A stretch of DNA of 64,000 nt from Gautieria morchelliformis (Eukaryota; Basidiomycota; Agaricomycetes; Gomphales; Gomphaceae). The stretch spans positions 124,001-188,000 of the forward strand of contig WHVA01000141.1 in NCBI GenBank assembly GCA_015179125.1, in the 5' to 3' direction. How positions within the stretch are numbered: position 1 is the stretch's first letter; each line of letters begins with the position of its first letter. Shown here piece by piece: positions 24,883 to 64,000 of the stretch. Below the pieces are notes generated by a model. That model made no database searches and was not told the DNA's origin. It worked only from the letters and a program-made list of their open reading frames with translations. A program made the translations under genes and the position numbers.

Positions 24883-27065
24883 TTCCCAAATTGTAGTGGC
24901 TCCAGCGCCGCCCTGTACCTTCATCCATGCCTGATGCCTGCGCTTATGATTTTCGAGGTCATAGGGCTTGCTTTAAATGAAGAGGCGGTGACAGAACAAT
25001 TCGAAGGACAGCCAATTGGAGAGGCCAGGAAGGATGGATTCGGAAAGAAAGAAAAACGTGAGCAGGTTAGTGCCTGGCGGATTGTCCATGCTTGTGTCTC
25101 GTAAAATCGAGGATAGATTAAGCGATGCATAAGGGGTAATATACACTCAGGGGATCGCCGGTATGCGAAGATCAGCTGCTGCAATGGTTCAGTGCTGCTC
25201 CGCAGAACTGGGCTATGAACAAGTAAATGGAAAATTATGTCACAGGTGAGAACTGAGCAGGTCTGCGTAGTCTAATGTACTCACGGGGAACACCGTAGCG
25301 CCTACTAAGCCAGTACTTTGCGATTTCTCCAAAACATATTTCTACGGGTCGCTTTAACGCCTGATCGATGATCTCCGGAACGCTAGGCTTTGTCCAGCCA
25401 TCGTATCCGTTTTGTCGACAAGCAACTCAATACGCTCACCACGGGAGAGCATTTGCTCAAATCGCCCATCGGTTGAATACTATCGACTATTGTTTATTCT
25501 TGTCCTCCTTGGTTCTGGTTCTTAATGTCTGATTAGTCTATTACGATCGAGTTCTTGTCATGGATGCGGGTCGCGTCGCCGAATTTGACACACCATTAAA
25601 CCTATTCGACCGTCCCGATTCGATTTTCCGGTCATTATGACGAAGCGAACCTATCGCATCAAGATATATTGAAGATTCGCGGGAGCGTGACGAAGGATGC
25701 GTCGAATCTCGAAGAGCAGTAAGGGTGTTGATCGTCGAGCTAGATTTTATAAATGCAATGTGATAGCTCTAGTCTAAGTGCTCCAGATCTGTGAAAGTAG
25801 GGTGTGAGTCCGAAGTCGTTCAAGTCTACGGTTAGCGCTATGGAGTTTGCGCTTTACGTACGGATTGATCTCGGTGGTGTATAGGAGGTCCGGCCGCACT
25901 TGCTAGTTGAAGTAGAATAATCATTCGATTCCGAATCGTCTTTGATTATATACACAACCGTCACGAGGAGTCAGAGTTAAGTTATGGCGCAGTCCATGTG
26001 ATCTCTGGGCTGCGTCCTTTCAGTGAAGTTGCGAGCGAGACCAATGATGACAATGTAATTCCTTTTGGCGAGTCATTTGGCAGGCACAAAGAGTTGGAAT
26101 GGAATGTATGGGAACGAATGCACCCATCCTGTTTCCTGGGGTAGTTGTGCGATATCTACTTCATGCTCAAGTCTTGATTGCGCACGTTATGCGTGAATCC
26201 CAGAAGGCAAGGATGACGGTAAGGCTGCCACAGTGCTTTCGAGACAAATCGTCAAACAAAAGTGTGGTTTCCGTAGGGCGAGACGACAGGGAATCGGTCG
26301 GAACCGACTTGCATTTCCTAAATCTTTAGCCAGTTGCACCTTTCGGACTAGGAGCGAAATTGGGTATATGACATCGTTAGACAAACGAGGCAGTTCGTTG
26401 GAAGTAGATACAAAGAATAAAGACGAGTACACACTGTTATCCTTCTTAGCCAACCTAACGCGTCCCTCGCCCAAACAGTCCTCGACTCTCCATGATTAAA
26501 CCATCGATTCACCACATCATCAATGCTGTGTGGCGTGCAGCGCTCCATACCATCATCAAGCCATGATTGTTTAACATTCTCGTGAAAGATATAGGAAAAG
26601 GGATGCATATAAGATCGCAGATTGGGCGGGGAAGGTAAGTGTTGTAAGGTCCAATATGAGCAGCTTTCTAGGGAATGAGGGTGTCACGTTTGAGGTACGC
26701 CATGGACGACTGAAGCCGCAGTACTGCTTGCATAGGGACTGACGACAAATATTCCCCGGTAGGTGCAATGCATGTAATTCCTCTAGTTTGCCAGTTGAAA
26801 GTATTGGTACTTGGTCAAATCGGATCATCGAGGCAACACGCGTGACACGTCCCACATAATCACATTTCGGTTGTCGCGCGTCAACCATTGCTCAGCTACC
26901 TTGCTCATCTTACGCTTCGCTGGCCCTAATTTGTGCCAAGTTGGCTACTTTCAATGGGCACCTGACCTAGTATGGCATGCATGACCTTTTATTCCACAGC
27001 CACCACAAGTCACATGGATGTAGCCAAGTCAACATAGTTGTTAAGCCGCTGGATTTCTCCACGAG
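24883..27065 (+). repeat. Direct-repeat block, copy 1
   Basis: Colinear with 38350-41132 from CAAAATTCCCAAATTG to the last ~25 codons of the zinc-finger gene. It contains a small ORF start (MIFEVIGLALNEEAV near 24945) and the ABC-transporter relic. Copy 1 lacks the solo LTR found in copy 2 and shows the empty target GCTAC at 26944-26948. Confidence 0.82.
25528..25725 (+). pseudogene. ABC transporter (ABCC/MRP type) C-terminal fragment
   Basis: [19 protein letters not shown] then [12 protein letters not shown] and DILKIRGS match the segment after the second nucleotide-binding domain's H-loop and the extreme C-terminus of MRP-type transporters. An indel near 25635 breaks the frame. Walker motifs and membrane domains are absent. 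The second block carries the same fragment at about 38665-38815, with an unbroken frame there. Confidence 0.72.
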
Positions 27066-30000
27066 TTCTTGGTCAAGACATCGAGTCCGCGTTTTGATTG
27101 CCATTCTTTTGCGGCCACGGCCCTAGCCTTCCTATCTGTCAGGTTCTTCCAGCAGGTCTCCCGGAAGTGCCGCAGCAGATGGGCTTCTTGCGAGAACGTC
27201 CTCGGTCGTTTGCCGTACGTGGTGCATCCGTAAGGACACACCACCTGGAGCGCCTCTGCCCGGAGAACGTCGGCATCGGACTTCAGGATCGTGGCCCTCG
27301 ATATGTCTAAAGAGCCTCTTTTTATATGTCGCAGCTCCTGCATGACGTGGTCGTTGATCCAGTGCGCTGTGCGATCCACATCAACCCTTCGACAGGTGCG
27401 GCCATTTGCATCGGTATGGCCGCATTCCGTGGGGTGTGGGGTTTCACCGGTACCTGGTGCCAAGTCATCATCCTCACTATCGGATGATGATGGCGACTCA
27501 TATTGGGGTGTAGGCGAGGGTGCTGCATCTGGTCGCCTAGTTGAGGCTCCCGCCAGCTGCCCACTGGCAATGTTTGCAGCGGGTGGGGTGGCAGTGGTGG
27601 TCCACGCCATCCCCCTGTTGTAATATAGATGTCTTTGGTAGATGGTGGGCCTGCGACATGCGTCAGGGTCATGTTCCCGTCTGTCAAACATCCATGAAAC
27701 CACTCACACATTATGCCCACCATCTGTGTGGACCAGATTGTCTGTACTGTCATCAGAGAAGGGCGTGCCTCCCGGATCCAGACCATTGTGGAGACATGGT
27801 GCATTTCCTACGGGCGGTAGGAAATAGGATCCAGTCTCTTGACCGCTTATGAACAACATCAGAGTGTGCTTTTCACATAATACTAGGTGGGTACCCGCGC
27901 TTCGCGCGGGGGTGCAGGTCAAACGCCTCGGTAAGGTCAAATGCATCAGTAAGGTCAAGTGCATTGGGGTAAATAGGATCATGCAAAATATATCCCTGTT
28001 CATATAATATCATGAATGATGTATGCACCCATGGAACAGCCAAACATGCAGAGCTCTCTCTCGACCTCTGGGATGGCCCTCCCAGCGACTCTAGACATGA
28101 AAGTGGTAATGGTCTTGACTGAATCATCAGAGATTATAAGATTGCGCCCATTGTCATAATCCACAGGTTTCAAAGCTTGTGCATTGTGAAATAGATCCAA
28201 TAGTGATCTTGGGGATCATGAATTTTGACAATGTGGTTATATTGATATGCCAGCTGATCCTCCGGTGACACTCTCACAGAATCAGAAACAATACCAAAAT
28301 CAGAAATGGGGGAAGACCCAAAGTGCAGTTGGATAGCATGTCCTCACACATAATGTGTCCTCACACGTAACATGTCCTCACAGGTAGCATGTCCCCACAC
28401 GTAACGTGTCCCAACAGGTAGCATGTCCTCACACATAACGTGTCCTCACAGGTAGTGTGTCCCCATACGTAAGGTGTCCTCACAGGTAGGGTGTCCCCAC
28501 AGGTAGGGTGTCCCCACAGGTAGCATGTCCTCACATGTAATGTGTCCCCACATGTAAGGTGTCCTCACAGGTAGCGTGACCCCACACATAACATGTCCCA
28601 CACATAACGTGTCCTCACATGTAACGTGTCCCCACAGATAGCGTGTCCTTACACGAAAGGTGTCCCCACACGTAACGTGTCCTCACAGGTAGCATGTCCC
28701 CACACATAATGTGTCCCCACATGTAACGTGTCCTCACAGGTAGCGTGTCCCCACAGGTAGCGTGTCCTCACACGTAATGTCCTCACATGTAATGTGTCCC
28801 CACACGTAACGTGTCCTCACAGGTAGCGTGTCCCCACACATAACATGTCCCACACATAATGTGTCCTCACAGGTAGTGTGTCCCCACAGGTAGCATGTCC
28901 TCACACGTAACATGTCCTCACAGGTAATGTGTCCCCACAGGTAGCGTGTCCTCACATGTAACGTGTCCTCACAGGTGACATGTCCCCACAGGTAGTGTGT
29001 CCTCACACGTAACGTGTCCTCACAGGTAGCGTGTCCCTACAGGTAGTGTGTCCTCACATGTAACGTGTCCTCACAGGTAGCGTGTCCCCATACGTAACGT
29101 GTCCTCACAGGTAATAGCGTGTCCCCAGAGGTAGCGTGTCCTCACACATATCAGGGACATGTATCAGTATCTATTTTGTGACATATATAAAATAGGAAAA
29201 GAAACCACATTTAAGCAGCTGTTGTCATTAATTTTAGCAAAGTCAGGATAATTTATTGATATCTATATTTATTTTTTGAAAAAAGATAAAAAAAAACACA
29301 CTACATTAAAACAGAAGTTGTTATTAACTTTAGCAAAGTCAGAATAAGTTATTGATATCTATTTGCGAAAAAATATCAAAAAAATATACAGGATATTTAA
29401 GTTGGCTGTTATTAAGGTTAGGAAGTTAGATTTATTGATTTCTATTTGCGAAAAAATATCAAAAAAATGTACAGGATAATTAAGTTTATTATTAAGGTTA
29501 GCAAGTTAGGTGTATTGATAGCAATTTGCGAAAAAATATCAAAAAATATACAGGACATTGAAGCAGAAGCTGGTGTCAATTCACAGCCAAAGAAGCCCAG
29601 AGACACCCAGAGACACACAGAAAGACACCAAGACCCCAGCCAAAGCAGTAGTAAGCCCACCACAGCCAGAACACAGGAGGACACCAGTGGGGAGTGCGGT
29701 TTTGCAGCATCGCTCTCTTTATACCAAGTGAAGGTCGTGCACGGACCACCCTCGGGTATGGTCGTGAACCGGTCACGTGACCTGGAACGCTGCTGCGCAG
29801 CGTTTGTAACTCGCGGCTGCGCCGCTCGCCGCTGACCTAAACAGACCGGGGGCTCGCGGCTGCGCTGCTCCGCTGACAAACTAATGACCAAGCATTGGTC
29901 AGCAGCGCCCACAACCCACTGAGCGCGTTTAACTCTTAGACTAGGTGGATACCCGCGCTTCGCGCGGGGGTGCAAGTCAAACGCCTCGGTAAGGTCAAAC

Positions 30001-33000
30001 ACATCAGCAAAGTCAAACACCTTGGGTAAATCAAACTTGGGATAAGTCAAACACATTCAGATAAGTAAAATGCATCTTATTGATTAAAAGTAGCTCTAAG
30101 TAACACATTGAGGTAGGTAATGTTATGACCATGCTGCTTGACCAACTCTGGTACCTCTGCACCTCCTCTGACTCTATTCCGCAATGTCCACACTTCGACC
30201 TTTTGATCTCCTTGTTCTTTCCTATTCACATACTTCCCCTTATGACTCTATTCACCAGCCTTCCTTACTTAACCCTTAACATAGCAATTCCGGAGCATCA
30301 GGAGTTCCATTTGTTCCGCTATCAATTCCCTAGGTGGGTACCCACACTTCGCATGGGGGTGCAAGTCAAATGCATCGGTAAGGTCAAACACATTGGGTGA
30401 ATCAAACTTGGGATAAGTCAAACACATTCGGATAAGAAATTTTCATTCAGATAAGTAAAACCCTTCTTATTGATTGAAAGTAACTCTAAATAACACATCA
30501 AGGTAGGTAATGTTATGACCATGCTCAACCAACTCCGGTACCCCCGCACCTCTGACTCTATTCCACAATGTCTGCACTTCAACCTTGTGATCCCCTTGTT
30601 CTTCACATATTTCCCCTAATGACTCTTTTCACCAGCATTCCATACTTGACCCTCAGCACAGCAAGTCCAGAGCGTCAGGAGTTCCATTTGTTCCGCTACC
30701 AATTAGACCCTTGGTCTTTTGCCTATTGTTCTTAGTTCTACACTGCACCCCCTTGTAGTTCCTCTTGTTTCGCATTAGGTACTTTTATTCTAGTTACTTG
30801 CACTGGAATTGCTTACCTCTACCTTCTGACATGTTGTCTCAGCTCTTTGTATAAAACCCAGTCATGTGTGCCTCTGTTCAGCAATCAGATAATCGACTTT
30901 GATATGTCACTCCCTTTGCACTGTCTCCGGTTCTTAGACCTGCAAGGCCTCTGTCTCTCTGACCTCCGTCTTCCAACTTGATTTCTCATATCCAACTTAA
31001 CTCAATTCTTGAACCCTTACTACTTCAGTTACAATACTCAACCTCTTCCAACTTCCAATCTCAGATCTCCAAAATACTTAGGATGATAGTTGGGGGTGCA
31101 ACATATAAGTTGGAGCTGCAGTCCTTTTAGATCCAAACCTGATACATAACAGGTAATGACTCTACACATTTCTCCCATGTCTCATGTCCCCTACCTCACA
31201 TGTAGTGTGTCCTTGCCTGTAGTGTGTCATCACACTTTATCTGTCCTCACACGTATTGCATCCTCACATGTGGCATGTCCCCACACGTAGTGTGTCCCAA
31301 AGCATAGTGTGCGTAGTGTGTCTCCACATGTAGCATGTCTCCATATGTAGTGTGTCCCCACATGCAGTACAGTGTGCATGGCATGTCCCACATGCATAAC
31401 ATGTCCCTCAAGTATTCTGTGTGTAGCATGTCCCTGGTTTGTAGCATGTGCCCAAACATAGCGTGTCCCTAAATTATAGCATGTGTGTCCCCCATGCATA
31501 GCGTGTCCACATGTGTAGCATGTCCCTACATGTAGTGTGTGTAGCGTGTCCCCCAAGTATAGCTTGTGTAGAATGTCCCTTGTTTGTAGTGTTTTCCCCT
31601 GTAGTGTGTCCCTTGTTTGTACCATGTCCCCCAAGCATAGTGTGTCCCCACATATAGTGTGCACATCCCCATGCATAGCATGTGTGTCCCCATGCATAAC
31701 ATGCGTGTCTCCACGCATAACATGAGTGTCCCCAAGTATAGTGTGTGTGTCTCCACGCATAACATGGGTGTCCCCAAGCATAGTGTGCGTGTCCCCAAGC
31801 ATAGTGTGCATGTCCCCACGCATAACATGCATGTCTCCACGCATAACATGCGTGTCCCCAAGCATAGCGTGTATGTCCCCATGGATAGCATGCTTGTCCC
31901 CACGCATAACATGCGTGTCTCCACGCATAGCATGTGTGTCCCCATGCATAGCCTGTCTGTCCCCAAGGATAGTGTGTCCCCACATGTGGCATGCATGTCC
32001 CCAAGCATAGGGTGCATGTCCCCATGCATAAAATGTGTGTCTCCAAGCATAACATGTGTGTCACCATGCATAGCATGCATGTCCCCAAGCATAGCATGTG
32101 TGTCCCCATGCATAACATGTGTCTCCACACATAGCATGCATGTCCCCAAGCATAGCGTGCATGTCTCCACACATAACATGCGTGTCCCCATGCATAGTGT
32201 GTGTAGCATGCCCCTCAAGTATAGCATGTGTAGCATATCCCCAAGGGCCTCAAAGTGAAGCAAGCAGAGGCTGTTACTACTTATTAACTTTTAGCAAACT
32301 CAGGGACATGTATCAATATCTATTTTGTGACATATACAGACATAAATAAAATAGTCAAGGAAACCATATTTAAGCAGCTGCTGTTATTAATTTTTAGCAA
32401 AGTCAGGATTATCTATTTTGTGAAAAAATGTCAAGAAAATGTCCAGTACATGTAAGCTGAAGCTGTTATTAATTTTAGCAAAGTTAGGACTATCTATTTT
32501 TCGAAAAATGTCAAAAAAATGCACTGTACATTTAACCTGGAGCTGTTGTCAATCTTCACAAAGTCAGGATAATTTATTGATATCTATCTGCGAAAAAATG
32601 TCAAAAAAGTACAGTACATTGAAGCAGAAGCTGTGATTAATGCCCAGCCAAAGCCAGAGAAGCCCAGAGACTGACAGACAAACCCAGAGCCCAGCCAAAG
32701 CCATAGTAAGCCAGCCACCAGTATAGCCAGAGAGGAGTGCCTGGTAAGCAGCTTTACAGTAAATAAAACAATAAAACAAACCACATTTAAATGTAGAACA
32801 TATTGTCATTAATTTTAGAGGAAACTTATTGATGTCTATTTTCAAAAAAAACCCAAAAAATATTGATATTAAAACAATTTTTTTCAGCAGTCTTGGGATG
32901 TTATCTAAATCTAATTTCGAAAAAAATCACAAAAATATAATGCACATGTGACAATACTATATGATGAAAAAAAAAAAGGAACCAATAAAATTACCAACAC

Positions 33001-36000
33001 AAATAAAATAAAATACATGGCAATGCATTAACAAAAAGATATTACCTACCAATAGATAGCCAGCCAGCCAAAGCAATAGCCAGCCAGCCAGCTAGAGGAG
33101 GTGACAGCAGACAGAGCTGACAGCAGACAGAGCTGACAGCAGACAGAGCTGACAGCAGACAGAGCTGACAGCAGACAGAGCTGACAGCAGACAGCACCCA
33201 GAGCAGACAGAGCACAGAGCAGACAGCGGACAGAGCACAGAGCACAGAGCAGACAGAGCACATAGCAGACAGCAGACAGAGGAATCGCCGGTTGGGCAGG
33301 TTCCTGGCGTTATGTCCTTACCGTTCGGCCTTTATACCGTGCGCGCGTGTCGTGCACGGACCACACTCGCGTATGCGCGCTCTGGTCGTGAACGGGTCAC
33401 GTGACCGCTGCGCAGCGTTCTATGCTCGCGGCTGCGCCGCTCGCCGCTGACCTAATTTGGAACGCAAATGGTCACGTGACCATGCTGCGCAGCGTTCTTG
33501 GCTCGCGGCTGCGCCGCTCGCATGCCGCTGACAAATTGATGACCTAAAACCTGACATAAGCTCGACGCCCACAACCCACCGAGCCGCTTTCACCTATAGG
33601 AACTAGGTGGGTACCCGCGCTTCGCGCGGGGGTGTAGGTCAAGCGCCTTGGTAAGGTCAAATGCATCAGTAAGGTCAAGTGAATCAGTAAGGTCAAGTGC
33701 ATTGGGGTAAATAGGATCATGCAAAATATATCCCTGTTCATATAGTATCATGAATCATGTATGCACCCAAGGAACAGCCGAACATGCAGAGCTCTCTCTC
33801 GACCTCTGGGCTGGCCCTCCCAGCGACTCTAGACATGAAAGTGGTAATGGTCTTGACTGAATCATCAGAGATTATAAGATTGCGCCTATTGTCATAATCC
33901 ACAGGTTTCAAAGCTTGTGCATTGTGAAATAGATCCAATAGTGATCTTGGGGATCCTGAATTTTGACAATGTGGTTATATGGATATGCCAGCTGATCCTC
34001 CGATGACGACACTCTCACAGAACCAGAAACAATACCAAAATCAGAAATGGGGGAAGACCCAAAGTGCAGTTGGATAGCATGTCCTCACACATAACGTGTC
34101 CTCACAGGTAGCGTGTCCTCACAGGTAGCATGTCCCCACACGTAATGTGTCCTCACAGGTAGTGTGTCCCCAAACGTAACATGTCCTCACAGGTAGTGTG
34201 TCCTCACAGGTAGCGTGTCTCCACACATAACGTGTCCTTACAGGTAGCGTGTCCACACACGTAACGTGTCCTCACAGGTAGCGTGTCCTCACACATAATG
34301 TGTCCTCACATGTAATGTGTCCCCACAGGTAGCGTGTCCTCACACGTAACATGTCCTCACACATATCAGGGACATGTATCAGTATCTATTTTGTGAGTGT
34401 GACATATATAGACATAAATAAAATAGCAAAAGAAACCACATTTAAGCAGCTGTTGTCATTAATTTTAGCAAAGCCTGGATAATTTATTGATATCTACCTT
34501 TTAAAAAAATGTCAAAAAATGTACAGTACATGTAACCTGAAGCTGGTATTAATTGTAGCAAAGTCAGGATAATTCATTGATATCTATATTTATTTTTCAA
34601 AAAAAGATAAAAAAAAAAAACACTACATTAAAACAGAAGTTGTTATTAACTTGAGCAAAGAAGTTACTGAGATCCATTTCGAAAAAATGTCAAAAAAATG
34701 TACAGGATATTTAAGTGTTATTGAGGTTAGCAAGTTTTATTTATTGATGTCTATTTGCGAAAAAATATCGAAAAATTTAAAGGATATGTAAGGTGTGTCC
34801 TCACACATGGCATGTCCTCACATGTAGTGTGTCCCCAAGTATAGTGTGCATAGCATATCCCTCAAGTATAGTGTGTGTAGCATGTCCCTTGTTTGTCCTC
34901 CGAGTATAGCTTGTCCCCCATGCGTAGTGCCCCATGAATAACATGCATCCCCCAAGTGTAGCATATCCCCAAGGGCCTCAAAGTGAAATTATTGTATATG
35001 CAAGCAAAATAAGTGAATGACAGAGGGTTTACAATGAATATTAGAGATATAATTGCAAGCAGAGGCTTTTACTTATCATTAACTTTTAGCAAACTCAGGG
35101 ACATGTATCAATATCTATTTTACAGACATAAATAAAATAGTAAAGGAAACCATATTTAAGCAGCTGCTCATTAATTTTAGCAAAGTCAGGATTATAGGAT
35201 TATCTATTTTTCGTGTCAAAAAACTGTCCAGTACATGTAAGCTGAAGCTGTTATTAATTTTAGCAAAGTTAGGATTATCTATTTTTCGAAATCTGTCAAA
35301 AAAATGCACTGTACATTTAAGCTGGAGCTGTTGTCAATTTGCATAAAGTCAGGATAATTTATTGACATATATCTGCGAAAAAATGTCAAAAAAGTACAGT
35401 ACATTGAAGCAGAAGCTGTTATTAATGCCCAGCCAAAGCCAGAGAAGCCCAGAGACTGACAGACAAACCCAGAGCCCAGCCAAAGCCATAGTAAGCCAGC
35501 CACCAGTATAGCCAGAGAGGAGTGCCTGGTAAGCAGCTTTACAGTAAATAAAACAATAAAACAAACCACATTTAAAAGCAGAATCTATTGTCATTGATTT
35601 TAGAGGAAACTTATTGATGTCAATTTTCGAAAAAACCCTGAAAAATATTGATATTAAAATACATTTTTTTCAGCAGTCTTTGGATGTTATTTAAAACTAT
35701 TTTCGAAAAAAATCATAAAAATATAATGCACATGTGACAATACTATGATGAAAAAAAAAACAATAAAATTACCACTACAAATAAAATAAAATACATGGCA
35801 ATGCATAAAAAAAAACATATTACCTACCAATAGAGGGCCAGCCAAGCAATAGACAGGCAGCCAGCTAAAGGAGGAGACAGCAGACAGAGCACAGAGCAGA
35901 CAGCGGACAGAGCACAGAGCACAGAGCACAGAGCAGACAGAGCACAGAGCAGACAGAGCACAGAGCAGACAGAGCACAGAGCAGACAGCGGAGAGAGGAA

Positions 36001-37498
36001 TCGCCGGTGGGGCAGGTTCCTAGCGTTCCCTCCTTACCGTGCGGCCTTTATACCGCGCGCGCGTCGTGCACGGACCATGCTCATACGCTGTCGCGAACGG
36101 GTCACGTGACCGCTGACCAGCGTTCATGCTCGCGGCTGCGCCGCTCGCGGCTGACCTAAAGAGAGAGCCCTGGAGCCGGCAGACCGGCGTAAACCGGTGA
36201 TAGGGCCAGGGGCTCGCGGCTGCGCCGCTCGCGTGCTCCGCTGACAAACTGGTGACCAAGCATTGGTCAGCAGCGCCCACAACCCACTGAGCGCGTTTAA
36301 CTCTTAGATGTCTGTACTTACTCATCAATATATTGCAACGACGTCAAACCCGGAGACAGCCTGAATGGCGTGTCGTAGCCCGACCTTGAGCGGAGTTTTC
36401 CTTCCGCTGACGAGCTCATGCCGTCACAGGCAGAGTTCGTCAGTGAGGAACTTGGGTCAGGGGCGATGTAGTGCAAGCCCTGCTGCTTGAACGTCGAGGA
36501 ACAGTCCGGGCCGGCGCTGGGGAATGGTGCGCCTTCCTGAGGTGGAGGAGGACCAGATAACCAACTACCATCAGATACTGACAGTGGGTAATGTGATGCA
36601 TCCCCCTGCCCGCTTAAGAATGAAATGAGTTATTTTCTAGACTCATGCATGATCGTGTCCTTACCTGAGAGGCGCATATTCCTCCACATAATCGACAGCA
36701 GATCCCACCGATCCACTAGCCTGATTGTACGAGATAACCTCCGGCACAGTCGGCTTGGTTTCGATCAGGGGTTCGCGAGCGGTGCGGCGTAATTCCTGCT
36801 GCTGGTGGCCGTATGAGTATGGAGCTCCTGGCACTGGGTAATGTAGCTCTCCCGGGTGCCCACTTAGAATTTAAATAAGTCATTTTTCAGCGTCCCAACG
36901 ATGGCTGTCCCTACCCTCGAGCAGTCCGCATGCAGTCATCAATATCCCTTTGGCTACCCCAGCGGTACGACATGTTGTCATAGACACCGGCGACAGACGG
37001 TGCGTCGGTGGTGCCTGTTGCACCATGCCATCCAAAGCTGGAAGCATGGTGTTTCTGCGAATGGGTCAGTGAGTTTCATCATCTCACACAAATTCGCGAC
37101 GCATACTGAAAATGTTCGTGGATGACATTGTCATACACGGCCCCTTCCTCGCCGCTCCACACTCCAGACATTCCCATACCAGGCTGAGAAGTCGTCAGAG
37201 GCGTACATTACAATCTCGAACAAGTTTGAATTCTCACTTGTAGGTTTCCATCCTCAAGCTGGACAAAAGAAGGGGCCACTGTGTAATCAACCGCTACTTC
37301 GGTTGATCGTACCGATTGATGGTACGCCCTACTGTAGGAGGCATCGTCCATGGGGTAGGAAGTGTTGGCGGTGGTGCTGTCCTGTGGCATATAGCTACAT
37401 CGTATCGCGTGGTAAGCATACAGAAGTATGAGGCCTCGGAGTGGCAAGCCTCACCTCCGTCCATCATCGTGCGAGCGCATGGTGTAATACTGGGACAT
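27041..37498 (-). CDS. Zinc-finger-like family, paralogue CD, split by Helitrons in one intron
   Basis: Eight exons on the minus strand: 37498-37455 (44 nt), 37394-37238, 37193-37107, 37054-36915, 36862-36665, 36612-36322, then 27845-27718 and 27660-27041. Exon 6 ends QYID plus GA (phase 2) at donor GTAAGTAC; exon 7 begins C-GGT-CAA after ATAAG, restoring frame. Between them lie 8426 bp of Helitrons; without these the intron would be 50 nt. Exon 8 encodes a C2H2-like motif (C-x8-C, H-x3-H) and CPYGC...HLLRHFRETC, ending at the TAA of 27041-27043. The 44-nt first exon and the YYNRGMAWTT / TYYDGGNAWNTT similarity tie it to paralogue A. Function unknown; a nuclear nucleic-acid-binding role is only inferred. 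Whether the giant intron is still spliced cannot be seen. Confidence 0.68.
27883..29940 (-). mobile_element. Non-autonomous Helitron H1
   Basis: On the minus strand it starts TCTAAGAGTTAAACGCGCTC at 29940 and ends with hairpin CCCGCGCGAAGCGCGGG, TACCCAC and CTAG at 27886-27883, followed by host T. These are the hallmarks of Helitron 5' TC and 3' hairpin-CTRR ends. There is no Rep/helicase ORF. Near the 3' end a 66-codon minus ORF (28200-28000) is shared with H3 and has no recognised function. The interior contains a long 17-bp minisatellite. Its 5' end abuts the CTAG of H2 directly. Confidence 0.85.
28330..29155. repeat. 17-bp minisatellite in H1 (about 48 units)
   Basis: Unit GTGTCCTCACAGGTAGC and variants (ACGTAAC, CCCCACA). 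Since 17 is not a multiple of 3, minus-strand ORFs through it give 17-residue pseudo-repeats rich in Cys, Trp and His and are not genes. Confidence 0.92.
30511..31151 (+). mobile_element. Solo LTR, 641 bp, inside H2
   Basis: Begins TGTTATGACC and ends GATACATAACA (TG...CA), flanked by GGTAA at 30506-30510 and 31152-31156. It contains a TATA-like CTTTGTATAAAA at about 30854. It is related to the solo LTR at 40305-41002 (same termini and the shared TGTTGTCTCAGCTCTTTGTA block). Confidence 0.9.
31170..32245. repeat. 17-bp minisatellite in H2 (about 60 units)
   Basis: Unit CATGTCCCCACGCATAA and relatives (GTGTCCCCAAGCATAGC). Long ORFs on both strands here (up to 250 codons) are low-complexity translations of the array. 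Confidence 0.9.
33100..33282. repeat. Short tandem repeats, CAGACAGAG class
   Basis: Five copies of GACAGCAGACAGAGCT followed by GCACAGAGCAGACAGA units. A related array is in H3 at about 35875-35995. Confidence 0.88.
33603..36308 (-). mobile_element. Non-autonomous Helitron H3
   Basis: 5' end TCTAAGAGTTAAACGCGCTC at 36308, 3' hairpin and CTAG at 33606-33603. Host A precedes the 5' TC and T follows the 3' CTAG. Ends and the first ~700 bp from the 3' side match H1, including the 66-codon shared ORF (33938-33738). Interior repeats resemble H2. The 5' region is GC-rich with TCACGTGAC and CGCGGCTGCGCCGCTCGC palindromic words. No Rep/helicase ORF. Confidence 0.85.
34080..34370. repeat. 17-bp minisatellite in H3 (about 17 units)
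   Basis: Same unit as in H1 at the equivalent position but far fewer copies, so array length differs strongly between related Helitrons. Confidence 0.9.
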
Positions 37499-38349: not shown

Positions 38350-41132
38350 GCTAACAAAATTCCCAAATTGTAACTCCAGCGCCGCCCTGCATCTTCACCC
38401 TGATGCCTTATGATTTTGGAGGTCATAGGACTTGCTTTAAATGAAGAGGCGGTGACAGAACCAATTGAAGAACAGCCAATTGGAGAGGCCAGGCGGGAGG
38501 GACTCGGAAAGAAAGAAAAACGTGACGAGGTTAGTGCGTGGTGGACTGTCCATGCTTGTGTCTCATAAAAGCGAGGATGGATTTAGCAATGGACAAGGAA
38601 TACTAAATATACACTCAGGGGGTCGCTAGTATGTGAAGATCAGCTGCCGGAGCGGTTCAGTGCTGTCGCGTCGCAGAATTTAACACACCATTAAACCTAT
38701 TCGACCCTCCCGATTCGATTTTCCGGTCAATATGCGACGAAGGGAACCTATCGCGTCAAGATATATTGAAGATTCGTGGGAGCGTGACGAAGGATGCGTC
38801 GAATCTCGAAGAGCAGTAGGGGTCTTCATCGACAGTCGAGCTATATTTTACAAATGCAATGCAATAACTCCAGTCTAAGTACCCCAGATCTGTGAAAGCA
38901 AGGTGTGGGTCCGAAGTCATTCAAGTCTACGGTTAGGGCTTTGGAGTTCGCGCTTTACGTACGTACTGATCTCGGTGTTCATCGACCGCTGTCCAGGTAG
39001 GTCCGGCCGCACCTGTTAGATGAAGTAGAATATCATTCGATTCTGAATCGACTTTGATTATATACACGATCGTCACGAGGGGTCAAAGTCAAGTTATGGC
39101 GCAGTCCATGTGATCTCTGGGCTGCGTCCTTTCATTGAAGTTGCGAGAGACTCTGTGGTGTGCACCATCCGTTGCCAGAATTAGACAGAGAACAGCATCT
39201 GGACAGGCTTGGCATTAGACTGTTCTGTCTCTTCCGTCATCTGAAACTGAAAGCGGTGAAAGCTGACCGTGTGCCAAAGGCTCGAAGTACGAACCTACGG
39301 GGTCGCTGTTAGAAGACTATCATCTCGGTTACGTGTGCACCACGGAAGCTCACACCTGGTGGTGGGTTCATGTCCTGCCCATAGTCCGCCGGCTCGAATC
39401 CAGCCTGCCACATTTATCTGTTCCTTCATCTGGCCCATTTATACCTATAACAAGGATTAAAATAGGACCAAACCAATGGTGAAAATGCATTTCCTTTTGT
39501 GAATCATTTATCAGGCATGATGAGTTGGAAGGGAATGTACGGGAACGACTGCACCTATTCTGTTTTCTTGGGCAGTTGTGCGATGTCTACCTTCAAATGT
39601 CAAACAAAAGGGGGGTTTCCGTAGTACGAGACGACAGTGAGTCGGTCGGAACCGACCTGCATTTCCTAAATCTTTGGCCAATTGCACCTTTCGGACTAGG
39701 AGCGAAGTTGGGTATATGCCATCATTAGACAAACCAGGCCGTTCGTGGTGGAAGTAGATACCAAGAATAAAGAACCAAGAATAAAGACGAGTACACACTG
39801 TTATCGTTCTTAACCAACCTAACGTGTCCCTCGCCCAGCAATCTGCGACTCTCCAGGATTAAACTATCGATCCAACATATCGTCAATGCTGTGTGTGCAG
39901 GGCTCCATACCATCATCGAGGCATGATTGTGTAACTTTCTCGTGAAAGATATAGGAAAAGGGATGCATATAAGATCGCGGATTGGGCGGAGAAGGTAAGT
40001 GTTGTAATGTCCAATATGAGCAGCTTTCTAGGGAATGAGGGTTGTCACATTTGAGGTACGCCATGGACGACTGAAGCTGCAGCACTGCTTGCATAAGGCC
40101 TGACGGCAAACATTCCCCGGTAGGTGCAATGCATGTAATTCCTCTAGTTTGCTTTCAGTATTGAAGGTATTGGTCAAATCAGATCCGTCATCAAGGCACA
40201 CGCGTGACGCATCACATAATCACATTTTGGTCATCGTCAACCGTTGCTCAGCTACCTTGCTCATCTTACGCTTAGCTGGCCCTAATTTGTGCCAAGTTGG
40301 CTACTGTTACGACCGTTCATTTCCGATTTCCGACCCTCAGTTCCGCCACACCTTTCCGCCCTTCCGATATTTCCGCAACACTTTCCGCTCCTCCGATATT
40401 CCGACATTCTGACATTCTGCCCATTGTTCTATTCCCTTGTTCTTTCGACTCTATTACTCGGACCCACCGGACCCGCGTCATCGTTCATCAAGAACATATA
40501 TCCGGTCACCCTTGTAGTTCGTTGTCAGATATGTTTTCCCGACCCCTTGTTCTTTGCCATTGTTCTACCTTACCCTGAACCCCCCTTGTAGTCCCATTGT
40601 CCCCAATAGTTAGTTCCCACGCATTGTCTACTCGACTTCCGCTTCCCCCGGAATTTGCTTAGTACCATATCATTACCTGTTGTCTCAGCTCTTTGTATAA
40701 AAGCCTGTCATGTATGTCTCTCTTTCTGCAATCAGATAATCGCCTTCGATACTTGATTTCCTTCGCTCCATCTCCTGTTCTTAGCACAGCGAGTCTAGCA
40801 AGATCTCAGTCTCTCCGCCTTCTGTCTTCCGCCTTCCGCCTCAGTTCCGACTCAAGTTCCAACCAGACCTTTGGTTCAGTACCTTCCGACTTCCGACTCA
40901 GTTCCGAAATACTTAGGACGATAGTTCATTGGGGGCGCAACCTATAAGTTGAAGCCGCTGTCCTTTCCAGTCCCGACTTAGCGGAAATCTCGATACGTAA
41001 CAGCTACTTTCAATGGGCACATGACCTAGTATGGGATGCATGACCGTTTAGTTCACAGTCACCACAAGTCACATGGATCTGGCGAAGTCAACATAGCTGT
41101 TACATAAGCCGCTGACTTTCTCTAGGAGTTCA
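38350..41132 (+). repeat. Direct-repeat block, copy 2
   Basis: Diverged copy of 24883-27065 in the same orientation. It contains an ABC-transporter C-terminal relic (38665-38815) and a solo LTR, and ends with the last ~15 codons of a zinc-finger-gene copy (CTCTAGGAGTTCAAGACATC), where homology breaks at the edge of the long KDZ-associated element. Confidence 0.8.
40305..41002 (+). mobile_element. Solo LTR, 698 bp, with target duplication
   Basis: Starts TGTTACGACC, ends CGATACGTAACA, flanked by GCTAC at 40300-40304 and 41003-41007. The homologous block copy 1 reads GTTGGCTACTTTC without the insertion, giving an empty-site control. A TATA-like TTTGTATAAAAG is at about 40690. Confidence 0.93.
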
Positions 41133-41284
41133 AGACATCGGAGGACATACGCTCCGCTGCGCGAGACAGTCTCTCAGAGACTCGGGGAGACCCGTGCCTG
41201 AACAAACAGTACCCCCTTGATCGGACAGTCAGGTACTAGCATTTTCATCTACATTTGTAAGATGGGCCAATCTATGAAATAAGC

Positions 41285-44200
41285 ATGTTTTATGTTTTGT
41301 GTATTTTAAGGAGTTTGGGTGGCAAAGTGACGCCTGGCCGCCGGGTGAAGACGGTCAGCCTGGGAGACACACTGCAGCGAATGGATCAGCCCCCAGAACG
41401 GTGTCTACATGGCTCGTTGCGTGACTCGCTGCGGTTCGCCAGGTTCGCCATCCTCCTCAAACCCGCTATTTCATTCCAGCAGTTAGATGTCCGTTCACCA
41501 CCATCCGAACTGCCTCTACATGTACACATGTTTCTCTGCGAGGCACTGGGCTGGGGCTGGCCTGCTGTGGCTCAATTCTGGCAACAATTATGTGAAGAGG
41601 TATGGAATGAGTCAGAAGTTGCAGCAACTGTTGAGGACATACGGGCTTTTCGCCAATATGGCCTCCTTCATGGGATTGGTGAGACCGTCTACTACTTTGC
41701 CCTCAGCCACTGACTGGAATAGGTCACCGTGATATGTATCCTCCCACTCATGTTTGTCTTGAGCCAAGCTGTCCAAATCACCAGGAAACCAACACCACAC
41801 TGACATTACGCCAGCCATCTCTGTATGATGCAACTCTATTCACCAAAGCATCAGGGGCTCTGCCTATATTTAGTCATTCTTTATATTGTCCCAGTATGGC
41901 TCATCAGTTTCATAGCAGTGAAATAAGCCTTACTCAATGAGAGCCTCTGCGCAGATTGTCACATCCACTATCATCCCAATTTTTCAGTGTCTAAAGCAAC
42001 GTCCATGCGAACATATTACCATGGTGTGCCAGATGTTGTTCAGGTATCCCAGCATCACTTTTTTGAAAGTGCGTTGTTAGAACTACAAGCGACTGAGATG
42101 TGCTTTGCCTGGTATGCTTGACCAGTGTTATGTAGCATGCTATTGACTGTTTTGAGACAGGGTATCAAGCACCAACTGTGCTCGTGTCTACAATAAAGCA
42201 CTGGGACCTGCCGATGCACACCAGTCCAATAATCCAGGTGCATACCCTGATGGCGGCCCTCCATCGCTCACTCTGCCTACGGATTGGACCTCGTCCATGT
42301 CCATGAACAGTGCCGATGTACTGGATGGCTTTTTCTTATTCTCATTGCTGCTTGAAAAGGCTGAGAAGGGAGAGTGCCTGGTTTTAATCCATGATGCGAG
42401 TTCACAAAGACTTCATCTGGAAGGGGCCATGCAGGAGAGGAATGCAGCAATCGAAGGATTCGGGCAAGAACTTTACAACCATGCTTGCGATCTTTGTTGC
42501 CACATGTAAGATAGCGGCAGTATAAACTGCGCACCCTCTAAGCGCCCATCTAAGCCATCTCACCAGAACGCTTTCCCTATTGTAGACACTTGAAATATCA
42601 AAAAAGTAAGACCATACGTTTGTTCATAAGACACTATTCGACAACTCTATGGTGCTATTTTGTTGAAATCAAGCTTATAAAAATTTCTATTGCATGTTTT
42701 TTCACTTTTTCATTTCAAAATTCATAAAACGTGATTCCCTGTCCAGGAAACACAAGTTCAATTTTCTGTCCCAGCGATTTTTGCCGCATCACATAAGCAA
42801 ATAGCGGATCTTGAATTCTTTTTTCATGGGACACAGTGACGAGTATATATCCCACTCTGACGCTTCAGACTCCGATGCAGCTCAAGTTTTTGTATACATG
42901 AGTAATAAGAAAAATACCAAAGTAGATGATTAAATCGGGGGATGCCCCGAGCGTAGTGAGGGAGGTCCTGATTGGTGCACTAAAGCCTCGTTTGTGCATC
43001 CAAAATAGTAAATGTGTGTCATGAATTTTATATACCCAAAATTAAAACTGCAACAGCAAGTTACAGAAAGAAAACAGAAAAATATAGGCAATGAACTATT
43101 TACACAAAGTCTGTTGGTTGAAACAAAAATCGACACACCTCAGAAATTGAACCTGCCACACTAACTTCAATTTAGATAATCCTTATAACCACTACACCAA
43201 ACAGACATTAGATAGAGAAAAGTGAAATTTCATGGGTATAGAGTACTACCAAAGTCAATATTGGACTTAGATCAGGCCCCAAAGTAATATACCATAGCTA
43301 CCAAGATGTCCTACCGAAATTTGAAAATTCTCCCCGGGCTATTTTCGCCGTCTAAACCCTAACCCTAAGGTGACTAATGGGCGCTTAGAGGGTGCGCAGT
43401 TTATACTGCCGCTATCTTACCGAAATCCTGATGGTGGTTGGGGTAGGTTTGGCATCTAGTATTTGACAAGCTCTCACTAATCTTTCACTTCACACCAGTG
43501 AAACTTCAAGGCGCTGTCAGCGATGGCAACGCAATGGGGCATCCCTGCTGTGCAGTTCATGACTGTAAGATCGCTCTAGGCAACACCAACCGTGACATGT
43601 ATTGTCCCGTTCATTTGGGCCGGCAGGCCAAGTGTGCTGTAATAAGCTGTGACATGCCACATGCTGAACACTTTCTAACCTGCGACCAAGGTTCACATCG
43701 TTCTCTAGAGCAAGTCTACAAACAGAAGCAGAAGGCCTTTTTCCACTTTCGGAATAGGATTGCGAAGGGGCCGTCATTGCACAGCGTGACTACGGACTCT
43801 GTGGGACTTGACATCCGAGGAGAAGAGGGATTCCAAGAGGTGGAGGGTGAAGAGACACAGGGGCCCTTTGTAGGAGGGCCGGCATGTGAATCCAAGCCAC
43901 TGCAAGGGAATCGGAGGATCCACGCTCAGTTTGGTCGCAGGCGGACTCACAATGAGCAGCTACTGATTAGACCCTGTGGAGTGATAATCTCACGGGGTCC
44001 TTTTTTTGGGTCTGAAGCGATATCTGCAGTGCGGGTATGTACATTTTATTCTGCAGATGCAGTGAACTCCTACTGACCTTTGGCTGAGTAGGAGTTCGTG
44101 CTAGCCACGTTCCCAACTCGAGAATCAATGCCAGAGGTTTTTTTCTACGATTCTAACTGCAATCTATTAAAACATATCCGTCACACGCAGTGCCGCCACT

Positions 44201-60530: not shown

Positions 60531-63500
60531 ATGTCGAATGCCCGCGAGGCAATCAGCTCCGGCGAGCTCACCGATCTCGTCGTTTCCTCCTCGTCCTCAA
60601 CTACAGTCTACCCTTCGGACGACACTATAATCTCCGTCTTGCAGGCTCGCTTTCGCGCAGACCTCCCATACACACGAATCGGTGCCACCGCCCTCGTCGT
60701 CGTCAATCCCTTGAAGGTTCTCACTAGCGTGAACGACGCCTCGGCCCAGGAATACGAGGACAAGAGCTACAAAGATACCAGTCTACCCACCGCAGATGCT
60801 CCTAAATCACTACAGCCTCACATATATGATCTTGCAGTAAGAATATATCTGCTCATGCGCCGCCGGTCAGAGTCCCAGAGCGTCGTCTTTCGGTGAGTGC
60901 CGCACGCGCATGCACATGCGTCCCTGACACCCATTGCGTTAGCGGGATCACGGGCTCCGGCAAGTCCGAGAGCAGCCGTCTGCTCGTGAATCAGGTCCTT
61001 CGACTCTCCGCACATTCCAAAAAGGAGTCTAAGTTGGCCGACCAAGTACGGAGCCTAGGCCTCGTTCTCGACTCGTTCGGCAACGCAAAGACACTCGTTA
61101 ATCCTAACGCATCTCGCCACGGTCGCTACCTCGAGCTCAACTTCAACGAGCGCGGCCGCCTTGCCTCCGCAAAAGCCCTGGCTTACGGTCTAGACAAGTC
61201 CCGATTGAACAGACTCGGCCATGAAGAGCGCTCCTACCACGTATTTTACCAATTCCTCTCCGGGGCCACTCCTGACGAGCGCGATGCCCTAGGCATCGAG
61301 GATGTGTCCGATTACGCTCTTCTTGCCTCCTCAGGATGTTATCGTCTCCCGGGTGGTCCGTTCAGCGACGACACTGTTCAGATGGATGATCTTCGCGGGG
61401 CTATGAGGACATTGGGGTTCAAACCCAAACATACCATGTCGATTTTTCAACTTCTCATCACTATTCTTGTTCTGGGCAATATCCATTTCGTAGACGCCGA
61501 GTCCCGCCGGGGCGAGCAGTCCGCCACGGTCTCAAACCCGATCGTGTTAGATCATGCTTCACGCCTTCTCGGTGTCCCGTCAGACGATCTACAACACGCG
61601 CTGACGAACAAATCGAACTACGTGCGCAAGGAATTTTACAACGTCCTTCTGAACGCCGAGCAGGCCGCGCGGCATCGCGATGGGCTTGTCCGGGATCTTT
61701 ATGCCATCCTCTTTGCATTCGTCGTCGAAACCGCAAACCACAAGATTACACCCGCACAACAGGAGCCTGCACCAGCGACACAGATCGTAGTCCTCGACCA
61801 GCCCGGCTTCCAGACCCGTGCGCCGAACAACACCAGTTCCATGCTCTTCGGGTCACCACTCATTGCTGCACAAGGGCAGAATGGCTTCGATGAATTTGTC
61901 TTCAATTTCCAGGACGAGCTTCTGCAGTCGTACGTGGTACGGCATACTTTCGAGGACGCCGTCGGGTATAACTCTCATGTCGTCTCTGATGGGGTCTCAT
62001 TACCTGCCGTAACAACGATGGACAATTCCGCGTGTATCGAGCTCTTACGTGGCGCACAGCTCAGTGGTACGCCCCAACGGAAACCGGCCGGCATGCTAGG
62101 GGCAATGAGTAAAGCGGCCACTGCTTATAAGTCTGGCAAGGTAGGCGAGGACAAAGATGAACAGCTCTTGCGCGACATCGTCGAGAAGTATAGCAAACAC
62201 GCTTCCTTCGCTGTTAACCCCACACCTACTGTCGCCACGGAAGGCCGGCTGTTCGGGATCAACCACTATGCAGGCAGCTGTTCTTACGATGCATCACACT
62301 TCGTTGAGAAAGATGCGGATACGCTCGATTCAGCGTTCGTGCCCCTCCTGCGGAATTCTACCGAGACGTTCATCGCCAAGCTTGTATCGGGCCCTAGCCT
62401 GGCCACCGAGACGCATTATCAAGACAAAAACATTGTGGTGCAAGCACAGGTCTCCTCCCGGCCACTTCGCCAACCTACTCGGCCTGCTCAGCGGCCCGAT
62501 GATGCCGCTCCCCTAGACCCTTCCAAGGTATATCCTGTTAGCACACAGCTTAATTTCAACCTCTCGGAGTTGTTGGTCACCCTCGATCAAATGAAACTCT
62601 GGACGGTCCTGTGTATCCGTCCCAATGATTCCATGTCCCCCAACTCTTTCGACAAGCGGAGAGTAAAGGCACAAGTACGGTCCCTTCTGTTACCCGACCT
62701 GGCTGCACGGCGTGCGACAGAGTATGTTGCGGATTATGAGCACGAGAAGTTCTGCGACCGCTATGTTCCCACCATGCGTGGAGACGTTCCGTTACGCATC
62801 CGGCAATGCGTACAGGCGAATGGGTTGCGGGAAGGCCAGGACTATGCCCTTGGGCACCGGTCGATTTGGTTGGCCTATGGTGCGTGGAAGATTATCGAGG
62901 ACGGTTTGCGGGCAGTAGAGAAAGAGCGCCGAAAGGCAGGGTTAGGTGGTGATGATGAGAGCGTGGCGCACGACATTGGGGATGACGCTACGACCGATCA
63001 CGAGGGTCCCACCTGGAAAGCTGGAGGTGGCGCGTTTGGCGAAAGTTCCGACAACCTCGTCCGAGGCATGCACCCCCAGTCTAATGTATTCCATAATGCT
63101 CCTGGAGGGTACGGCTCCGGAGGGCTCGCGACTCCCAGCCAGCAGGTGTATACCCATGGTCGGGACGAAAGTGGCTGGGGCTCCGAATGGGACGTGAAGC
63201 GAGGCATGTCGCCCCCGACGGACAAGGTTGCTGAATCGAAAGAGTCAGCGGGCTTAATCGTCAACGAAAAGCAGAACACAGTTGAAGAGATACCACAGAC
63301 ACGCGCGAGACGTTTTTGGATCGTTGTGGTATGGTTGTGTACATGGTGGATTCCATCGTTCCTCTTGCATCACGTCGGGCGTATGAAGCGCCCCGACGTC
63401 CGCTTTGCATGGCGTGAGAAGGTGACCATCTGTTTTCTCATTTTATTCCTTTGTGGCATTGTCCTGTTCTACATTATCGTGTTCGGAGTACTGCTTTGCC

Positions 63501-64000
63501 CTAATTTCAACAAGGCATGGGCAAGCAACGAAGTTGCTCAACACGCTGCAACAAATAATCTCTGGGTGTCCATTCAGGGCCAGGTCTACGATATCACGAA
63601 CTTCCAGGGTGACCACAGCGACATACCAGCTGAGCCCGTCACCAGCGACGTATTGTTGCAGCTTGGCGGCCTCGATCTTACCCCTTACTTTCCCCCGCCT
63701 CTCGTATCCGCTTGCAGCGGGCTTGTCTCGGATCCCCGCCTGGCCCTCAGAGCAAAAAACGTCACTATTATATCCCCCAGGCTGTTCATACGTCAGGTGT
63801 TCAGCAGACAAATGTCGGTACGAAATTGGATCAATCAGATTGGTATACCAGTATTTTTCAGCCCAAGATCAATCAATACCACAAAGGTCCACTTGTTTGG
63901 GATACAGGAATGATCAAGTCAGAGGCCGACAACGGTGACAGGTACGCGTCTGTCATCATCATGCTCGTGTTTCTTTGCTGATAATGTTTTGCGACAGGGT
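60531..64000 (+). CDS. Class V chitin synthase with myosin motor-like domain (5' part)
   Basis: Membrane glycosyltransferase making chitin from UDP-GlcNAc, fused to a myosin head. Exon 1 is 60531-60892; intron 60893-60942; exon 2 from 60943. Motor motifs in order: P-loop GITGSGKSES, NPNASRHGRYLEL (switch I), LGNIHFVD, VVLDQPGFQ (switch II), FGINHYAG. Then LWTVLCIRPNDSMSP and a DEK-like linker, two membrane helices (FWIVVVWLCTWWIPSFLLHH; ICFLILFLCGIVLFYIIVFG), and a cytochrome-b5-like fold (NNLWVSIQGQVYDITNF). The catalytic QxxRW region lies beyond the window. At 63774-63778 a C5 run is one base short: the frame moves from NVTIISP to the continuation QAVHTSG, which resumes in another frame up to donor 63942. 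Either a sequencing error or a real lesion. Confidence 0.9.

Follow-up and report, generated by a model that had tools for sequence, protein, structure and literature searches.

The window analysed here is a stretch of 64,000 nucleotides (nt) from the genome of the fungus Gautieria morchelliformis (assembly GCA_015179125.1, contig WHVA01000141.1, positions 124,001 to 188,000). It contains a gene in which one intron is enlarged by an insert of 8,426 nt (27883-36308), so that the intron measures 8,476 nt with the insert and 50 nt without it. The insert consists of three head-to-tail elements of the Helitron type, named A, B and C. All coordinates are window positions, and both the host gene and the insert are read on the minus strand.

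The interrupted gene and its insert-free paralogues

The features of the host gene at the insertion site are as follows.

36322..36577, minus strand: host exon 6, ending in phase 2 at the donor GTAAGTAC
36309..36321, minus strand: left piece of the host intron, GTAAGTACAGACA, from the junction sequence and the paralogue alignment
27846..27882, minus strand: right piece of the host intron, TATTATG...ATAAG, from the junction sequence and the paralogue alignment
27708..27845, minus strand: host exon 7, following the acceptor ATAAG
27041..27650, minus strand: host exon 8, including the stop codon

A preliminary description of the window had proposed that a gene is split at this site, with exon 6 ending at 36322 in phase 2 and exon 7 starting at 27845, and the coordinates and the reading frame agree with this. 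In translation, exons 6, 7 and 8 form a continuous open frame up to a TAA at 27041. An open frame was not obtained for exons 1-5 as drawn, and therefore the coding claim is confined to exons 6-8. Exon 7 of the window copy aligned without gaps in 13 of 13 rows, and exon 8 did so with its nearest copies, on contigs C315 and C313. In exon 6 the gaps relative to the paralogues were only 0, 1 or 6 nt in eight of the nine listed alignments, and the ninth (C295) had gaps of 2 and 44 nt. Eight nucleotides of window exon 4 were absent from all six listed paralogue alignments. The gene had been called zinc-finger-like; a C-x3-C ... H-x3-H motif can be recognized by eye, but no Pfam family was found at E<=1 in a query comprising exons 7-8 and five residues from the end of exon 6. 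Two unrelated gene halves at the site were ruled out, because exons 6-8 share one frame and 12 other copies have an uninterrupted intron. Sequence from behind the host gene is partly repeated in front of it (24901-27082 versus 38375-41140, 83-95%), with an offset of about 13.4 kilobases (kb) that includes the insert.

The flanks of the insert were searched in the source genome (122,073,039 bases in 1,113 contigs). Thirteen other copies of the intron were found, all of them without the insert. In the alignment 12 of these are unbroken at the site, four of the 12 rows starting only just before the donor, and the copy on C295 lacks 4 nt at the insertion site. On the exon 7 side, the matches on C313, C189, C972, C1090, C1088, C315 and C295 each start at most one base from the insertion point; host matches on the exon 6 side that end at this point were those on C313 and C315 among the matches listed. 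The insert-free copies are paralogues and not alleles, 11 of the 13 residing on contigs with at least two copies about 5.6 kb apart, and tandem copies of the host gene family with this spacing are present at C313, C189, C972, C1090 and C1088. The other host-side matches (up to 98% beside exon 7, 83-95% upstream) were all paralogues as well, no search having been aimed at alleles.

The insert is joined to the host as ...CAGACA followed by TCTAAGAG at one end, and as CCACCTAG followed by TATTATG at the other. The 13 paralogous introns without insert establish that the break lies exactly between A and T (A^T) and that no host base is doubled, and thus the insertion is of the Helitron1 type in its target and in the lack of a target duplication. 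That A and T are the host junction bases, and that removal of 27883-36308 restores an intron of 50 nt, had both been claimed before. The former is borne out by the insert-free sites, the latter by the coordinates and the paralogue alignment.

Structure and relationships of the three elements

The elements and their terminal structures were delimited as listed below.

33603-36308, minus strand, 2,706 nt: element A, non-coding, preceded by the host A, 5' start TCTAAGAG, 3' hairpin and CTAG
33614..33630, minus strand: 3' hairpin of A with a stem of 7 base pairs (bp) and a 3-nt loop, z -4.20
29941-33602, minus strand, 3,662 nt: element B, abutting the CTAG of A, 5' start TTCCTATAGG, 3' hairpin and CTAG
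30330-30369, minus strand: decayed older 3' end inside B, CTAG retained and hairpin lost, z -1.12, 389 nt before the working end
29952..29968, minus strand: 3' hairpin of B, z -2.86
27883-29940, minus strand, 2,058 nt: element C, abutting the CTAG of B, 5' start TCTAAGAG, 3' hairpin and CTAG, then the host T
27894..27910, minus strand: 3' hairpin of C, z -3.32

Each of the three hairpins has a 7-bp stem and ends 11 nt from the 3' end of the CTAG, so that A, B and C all carry the CTRR after a short hairpin that characterizes the 3' ends of the Helitron1 type. Three such ends had been described, and all three are present, but the decayed CTAG end without a hairpin inside B has to be added as a fourth. 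The decayed end also occurs 389 nt from the working end in L049 and L050, and this equal distance indicates that it is probably older than the insertion into the intron. Another kind of decayed 3' end inside elements, in which CCACCTAG precedes AGGTAAGGGTTCAAGA or a near variant, was observed for instance at L036:744, L058:758 and L028:2938, where its distance to the working end is about 740-770 nt. Decayed ends of this second type are a sign of 3' ends being renewed through read-through.

At the 5' ends, the TC start reported earlier holds for A and C, but B starts with TTCC. A TTCC-starting element in L025 also follows an A that is no Helitron end, and a 5' TC can be assigned to B only when its first T is counted as target. 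An apparent stutter of the 5' tip was seen at L030:1487-1508, where TCTAAG occurs twice before TCTAAGAG, after TA. Multiple 5' termini have been described for Helitrons of Fusarium (PMC5148889). Three inverted pairs were detected in 19000-46000 (minimum 30 nt, seed 14), none of them at element ends, and at this length limit the elements lack terminal inverted repeats, as is typical of the Helitron1 type; shorter pairs were judged by eye. The element bodies contain minisatellites of 17 and 21 nt, and the longest frame of the insert, with 276 amino acids, lies within a minisatellite.

To judge from pairwise comparison of their sequences, A, B and C are different subfamilies: A is 81% identical to B over 0.67 and 79% identical to C over 0.69 of its length, and B is 72% identical to C over 0.27 of its length. 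A resembles a mosaic of B-like and C-like stretches. Much closer relatives were found elsewhere. At C702 and C456 there is sequence with 99% identity to the first 1,909 nt of A, and at C572 sequence with 98% identity to the first 1,353 nt of B. In both L024 and L026 an element with 98% identity to C from tip to tip occurs in a different neighbourhood, following a host A in L026 and lying among other members in L024. At C782 and C890, the contigs of L026 and L024, the identity to the 5' part of C is 99%. In each search for relatives the best 40 candidates were scored, so that counts of element order represent a sample. The order was analysed in 21 of 39 other scored A rows (those with at least 93%), in 37 of 39 B rows and in 24 of 39 C rows (those starting at the first base of the query). 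Among these listed relatives the order A-B was repeated at the right distance in none of the 21 A relatives and B-C in none of the 37 B relatives. Other orders do occur, namely B-A (1/37) and C-B (2/24).

In five arrays that were compared (the window, L023, L024, L025 and L028, one L024 member being cut at a decayed 3' end), all eight adjacent pairs of complete elements were less than 85% identical, and relatives located in different arrays reached 98-99%. After merging of identical junctions, 41 distinct junctions gave 820 pairs. Likeness was defined as more than 95% over more than 300 nt, and a side shorter than 400 nt could not match. On this basis 49 pairs were alike on the left, seven on the right and one on both sides, and about 0.4 would be expected on both sides if the sides were independent.

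Stacking of elements across the genome

The joints between the elements were searched in the whole genome with up to one mismatch. CCACCTAG directly followed by TCTAAGAG yielded 385 matches, and the backward control yielded five. With TTCCTATAGG as the following tip 144 matches were obtained (control 0), and with TTACACTAT, a third 5' tip type encountered in L025 and L028, the number was 209 (control 0). Exact matches to TCTAAGAGTKRAAYG, a 5' end of the TCTAAGAG type, numbered 437 (control 0), of which 324 stand right after CTAG, 102 after A and 11 after neither. Both the junction patterns and the 5'-end pattern, for which no mismatch was allowed, favour young copies. The 102 ends after A are not all flanked by host sequence; by eye, the flank in L050 is the interior of a C-like Helitron. 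Some contigs may be redundant or allelic and may have been counted twice, since L044 (contig C101) and L047 (contig C122) are identical over 2,615 nt.

Strands and chains were analysed for the zero-mismatch rows on contigs C1-C269, which comprise 174 of the 738 junction matches. These junctions form one-strand chains of up to eight, and neighbouring junctions at most 8 kb apart are on the same strand in 83 of 85 cases. The plus strand of the window contains 4,376 AT dinucleotides, which scales to about 8.3 million in the genome. With a random choice of A^T, less than 0.02% of insertions would abut the 5' end of a resident in the same orientation, even with 3,000 residents. Taken together, the same end-to-end stacking throughout the genome suggests that insertion at the tip of an older copy is frequent among these transposons. 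Assembly chimeras were ruled out as the general cause, because both tips are exact, the joints recur hundreds of times and long contigs are affected too; single contigs may still be chimeric.

A search with PF14214 for RepHel, a protein that combines an HUH nuclease with a helicase, gave 150 scored matches among 865 candidates. None of these 150 is on the contig of the window, the search covering PF14214 and not the helicase part.

Elsewhere in the window, exact inverted repeats of 44 nt lie 827 nt apart (42506-42549 and 43377-43420), and beside them a frame at 43450-44073 contains a KDZ-transposase-associated CxC6 domain. A further frame (60833-63910) combines a myosin motor domain with a cytochrome b5 domain, a combination that is found in some fungal chitin synthases. 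Together with the short introns, these two frames give the genome a fungal appearance.

Possible origins of the array

Sequence comparison indicates separate insertions as the most likely origin of the array, because its members represent different subfamilies, near-identical relatives exist in other surroundings, and the order A-B-C was not refound among the relatives checked. The repeated head-to-tail insertion that had been proposed earlier is thereby supported. Probably, three separately mobile non-coding Helitrons entered the one A^T of the intron successively, and growth of the array would then have been on the side of the host A, its 5' side. For several elements to insert separately at a single position, the target would have to be regenerated each time, and because the element after the host A starts with T, A^T is regenerated on the 5' side. 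A newcomer would insert at the A^T formed by the host A and the first T of the resident. Its own 5' T would then follow the host A and its CTAG would be joined to the 5' T of the resident, so that A would be the youngest and C the oldest member. In the rolling-circle model, the 5' bond of the resident would also be the donor nick site of the RepHel transposase, and thus a resident would offer a ready-bound or ready-nicked target. Candidate sources of the protein would be elements of this genome that code for RepHel, and a few of them are flanked on both sides by family junctions. With insertion in front of residents, a single A^T rule covers 426 of the 437 exact ends. On C78, match coordinates indicate that one TCTAAGAG end starts 8 nt into the 5' tip of a different member, which fits a 5'-tip target.

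Several observations weigh against successive insertion at the 5' side. In maize, there are lines in which a head-to-tail pair is represented by its upstream member alone, and the report describing the pair leaves the order unsettled (Du et al. 2008, PMC2267711); this fits an insertion at the 3' side (G^T) or excision of the downstream member. A non-adjacent pair inside the L025 array is 91% alike. The nearest relatives of segments of A, B and C, with 99%, 98% and 99%, do not allow a ranking of insertion ages. At L026:4673 an AA stands between the CTAG of one member and the next TTACACTAT tip; an element 2 bp upstream of another is described for Fusarium (PMC5148889). Lastly, among 47 of the 150 listed PF14214 matches, those on C1-C269, only three lie between two family junctions, and 13 are accompanied on the proper side by a family end no more than 5 kb away when A-preceded ends are counted, leaving 34 of 47 without one; this proximity test used 127 junctions, those of the first two tip types.

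The maize lines are also an argument for separate insertions at the 3' side, where a newcomer would enter directly after the resident CTAG and before the next T (G^T), A being the oldest and C the youngest. The final sequence would be identical to that expected from growth at the 5' side. Nevertheless, 102 of the 113 5' ends away from tip-to-tip joints follow A, so that growth at the 3' side would require G^T to have been used 324 times by elements that mostly require A, and the end on C78 is near a 5' tip, as far as coordinates tell. Growth at the 3' side is thus considered unlikely. The chance is small that a composite A-B-C had formed elsewhere by read-through of weak 3' ends and was inserted in one event. 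Read-through at the 3' end is documented for Helitrons (PMC4778049), the decayed 3' end of B is shared with L049 and L050, and some junction-type pairs recur with similar spacing (C182, C193). In contrast, neither A-B nor B-C was found again, although a copy outside the best 40 candidates of each search is possible, just one of the 820 junction pairs is alike on both sides, and the hairpins at the internal ends of A and B are as stable as the last one.

Homologous recombination of circular Helitron intermediates with residents would also produce exact joints of CTAG with TC. Circular Helitrons whose ends are precisely joined have been described (PMC4778049), and the mosaic-like appearance of A would be in accordance with it. 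A single crossover, however, would make both neighbours chimeric, yet the 98% identity of C to its relatives in L024 and L026 extends from one tip to the other, and A is 99% identical to its relatives over its first 1,909 nt. This origin is therefore regarded as very improbable. The multiplication of a single element in place, either as a rolling-circle concatemer or by unequal crossing-over, is hardly conceivable for this array. Rolling-circle replication could produce head-to-tail multimers, and tandem arrays of plants and bats have been interpreted in this way (PMC5876387, PMC5148889). Such a process should leave near-identical neighbours, yet the members of this array are of different subfamilies, adjacent complete members throughout the compared arrays are dissimilar, and the high identities occur across arrays.

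Head-to-tail Helitrons are already known, and it is the scale and the mixed membership that look new. Plant centromeres contain tandem Helitron arrays that are described as truncated, whereas the members found here have both tips. Further head-to-tail or tandem Helitrons are described for bats, maize, other plants, Drosophila and Metarhizium (PMC5876387, PMC2267711, PMC5148889). Most similar is the maize pair, in which two different Helitrons are joined as CTAG and TC with a G/T junction; its authors favour separate insertions, and an A^T formed by the host A and the 5' T is one option that they name (Du et al. 2008, PMC2267711). It shares with the present case the unlike members and the CTAG-TC joint, but it is one pair, compared with three elements in one intron and hundreds of joints throughout the genome. 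For Metarhizium acridum, three tandem copies are reported, and two insertions at the 5' end or rolling-circle replication are considered (PMC5148889). Both cases are fungal with three elements in tandem, but there the ends are of the Helitron2 type and a single case is concerned, and here the ends are CTAG, the target is A^T and the joints number hundreds. Helraiser and bat Helitrons have a 3' hairpin and CTAG in common with the elements described here and a 5' TC in common with A and C, and exact head-to-tail circles and 3' read-through are reported for them (PMC4778049, PMC5876387); Helraiser is an experimental element. In the literature on Helitron arrays that was covered, including that on fungi and mushrooms, no report was found of a genome in which most ends of one tip type are stacked, most subscription papers being outside this coverage.

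Tandem Helitrons have been explained before as rolling-circle concatemers or as neighbouring insertions, on the basis of few cases. Hundreds of exact joints between unlike elements in one genome are enough to decide between such models, and the same joints allow testing whether the donor nick site doubles as the target. The intron represents a clean founder site, with 13 insert-free copies for comparison. It is tempting to speculate, albeit tentatively, that the family homes to itself. The nick site of the transposase at the 5' tips of residents might then be the main landing site, roughly three quarters of the ends that belong to one tip type abutting an older copy, and the mixed one-directional arrays might act as sinks that spare genes, with only rare founders as in the intron.

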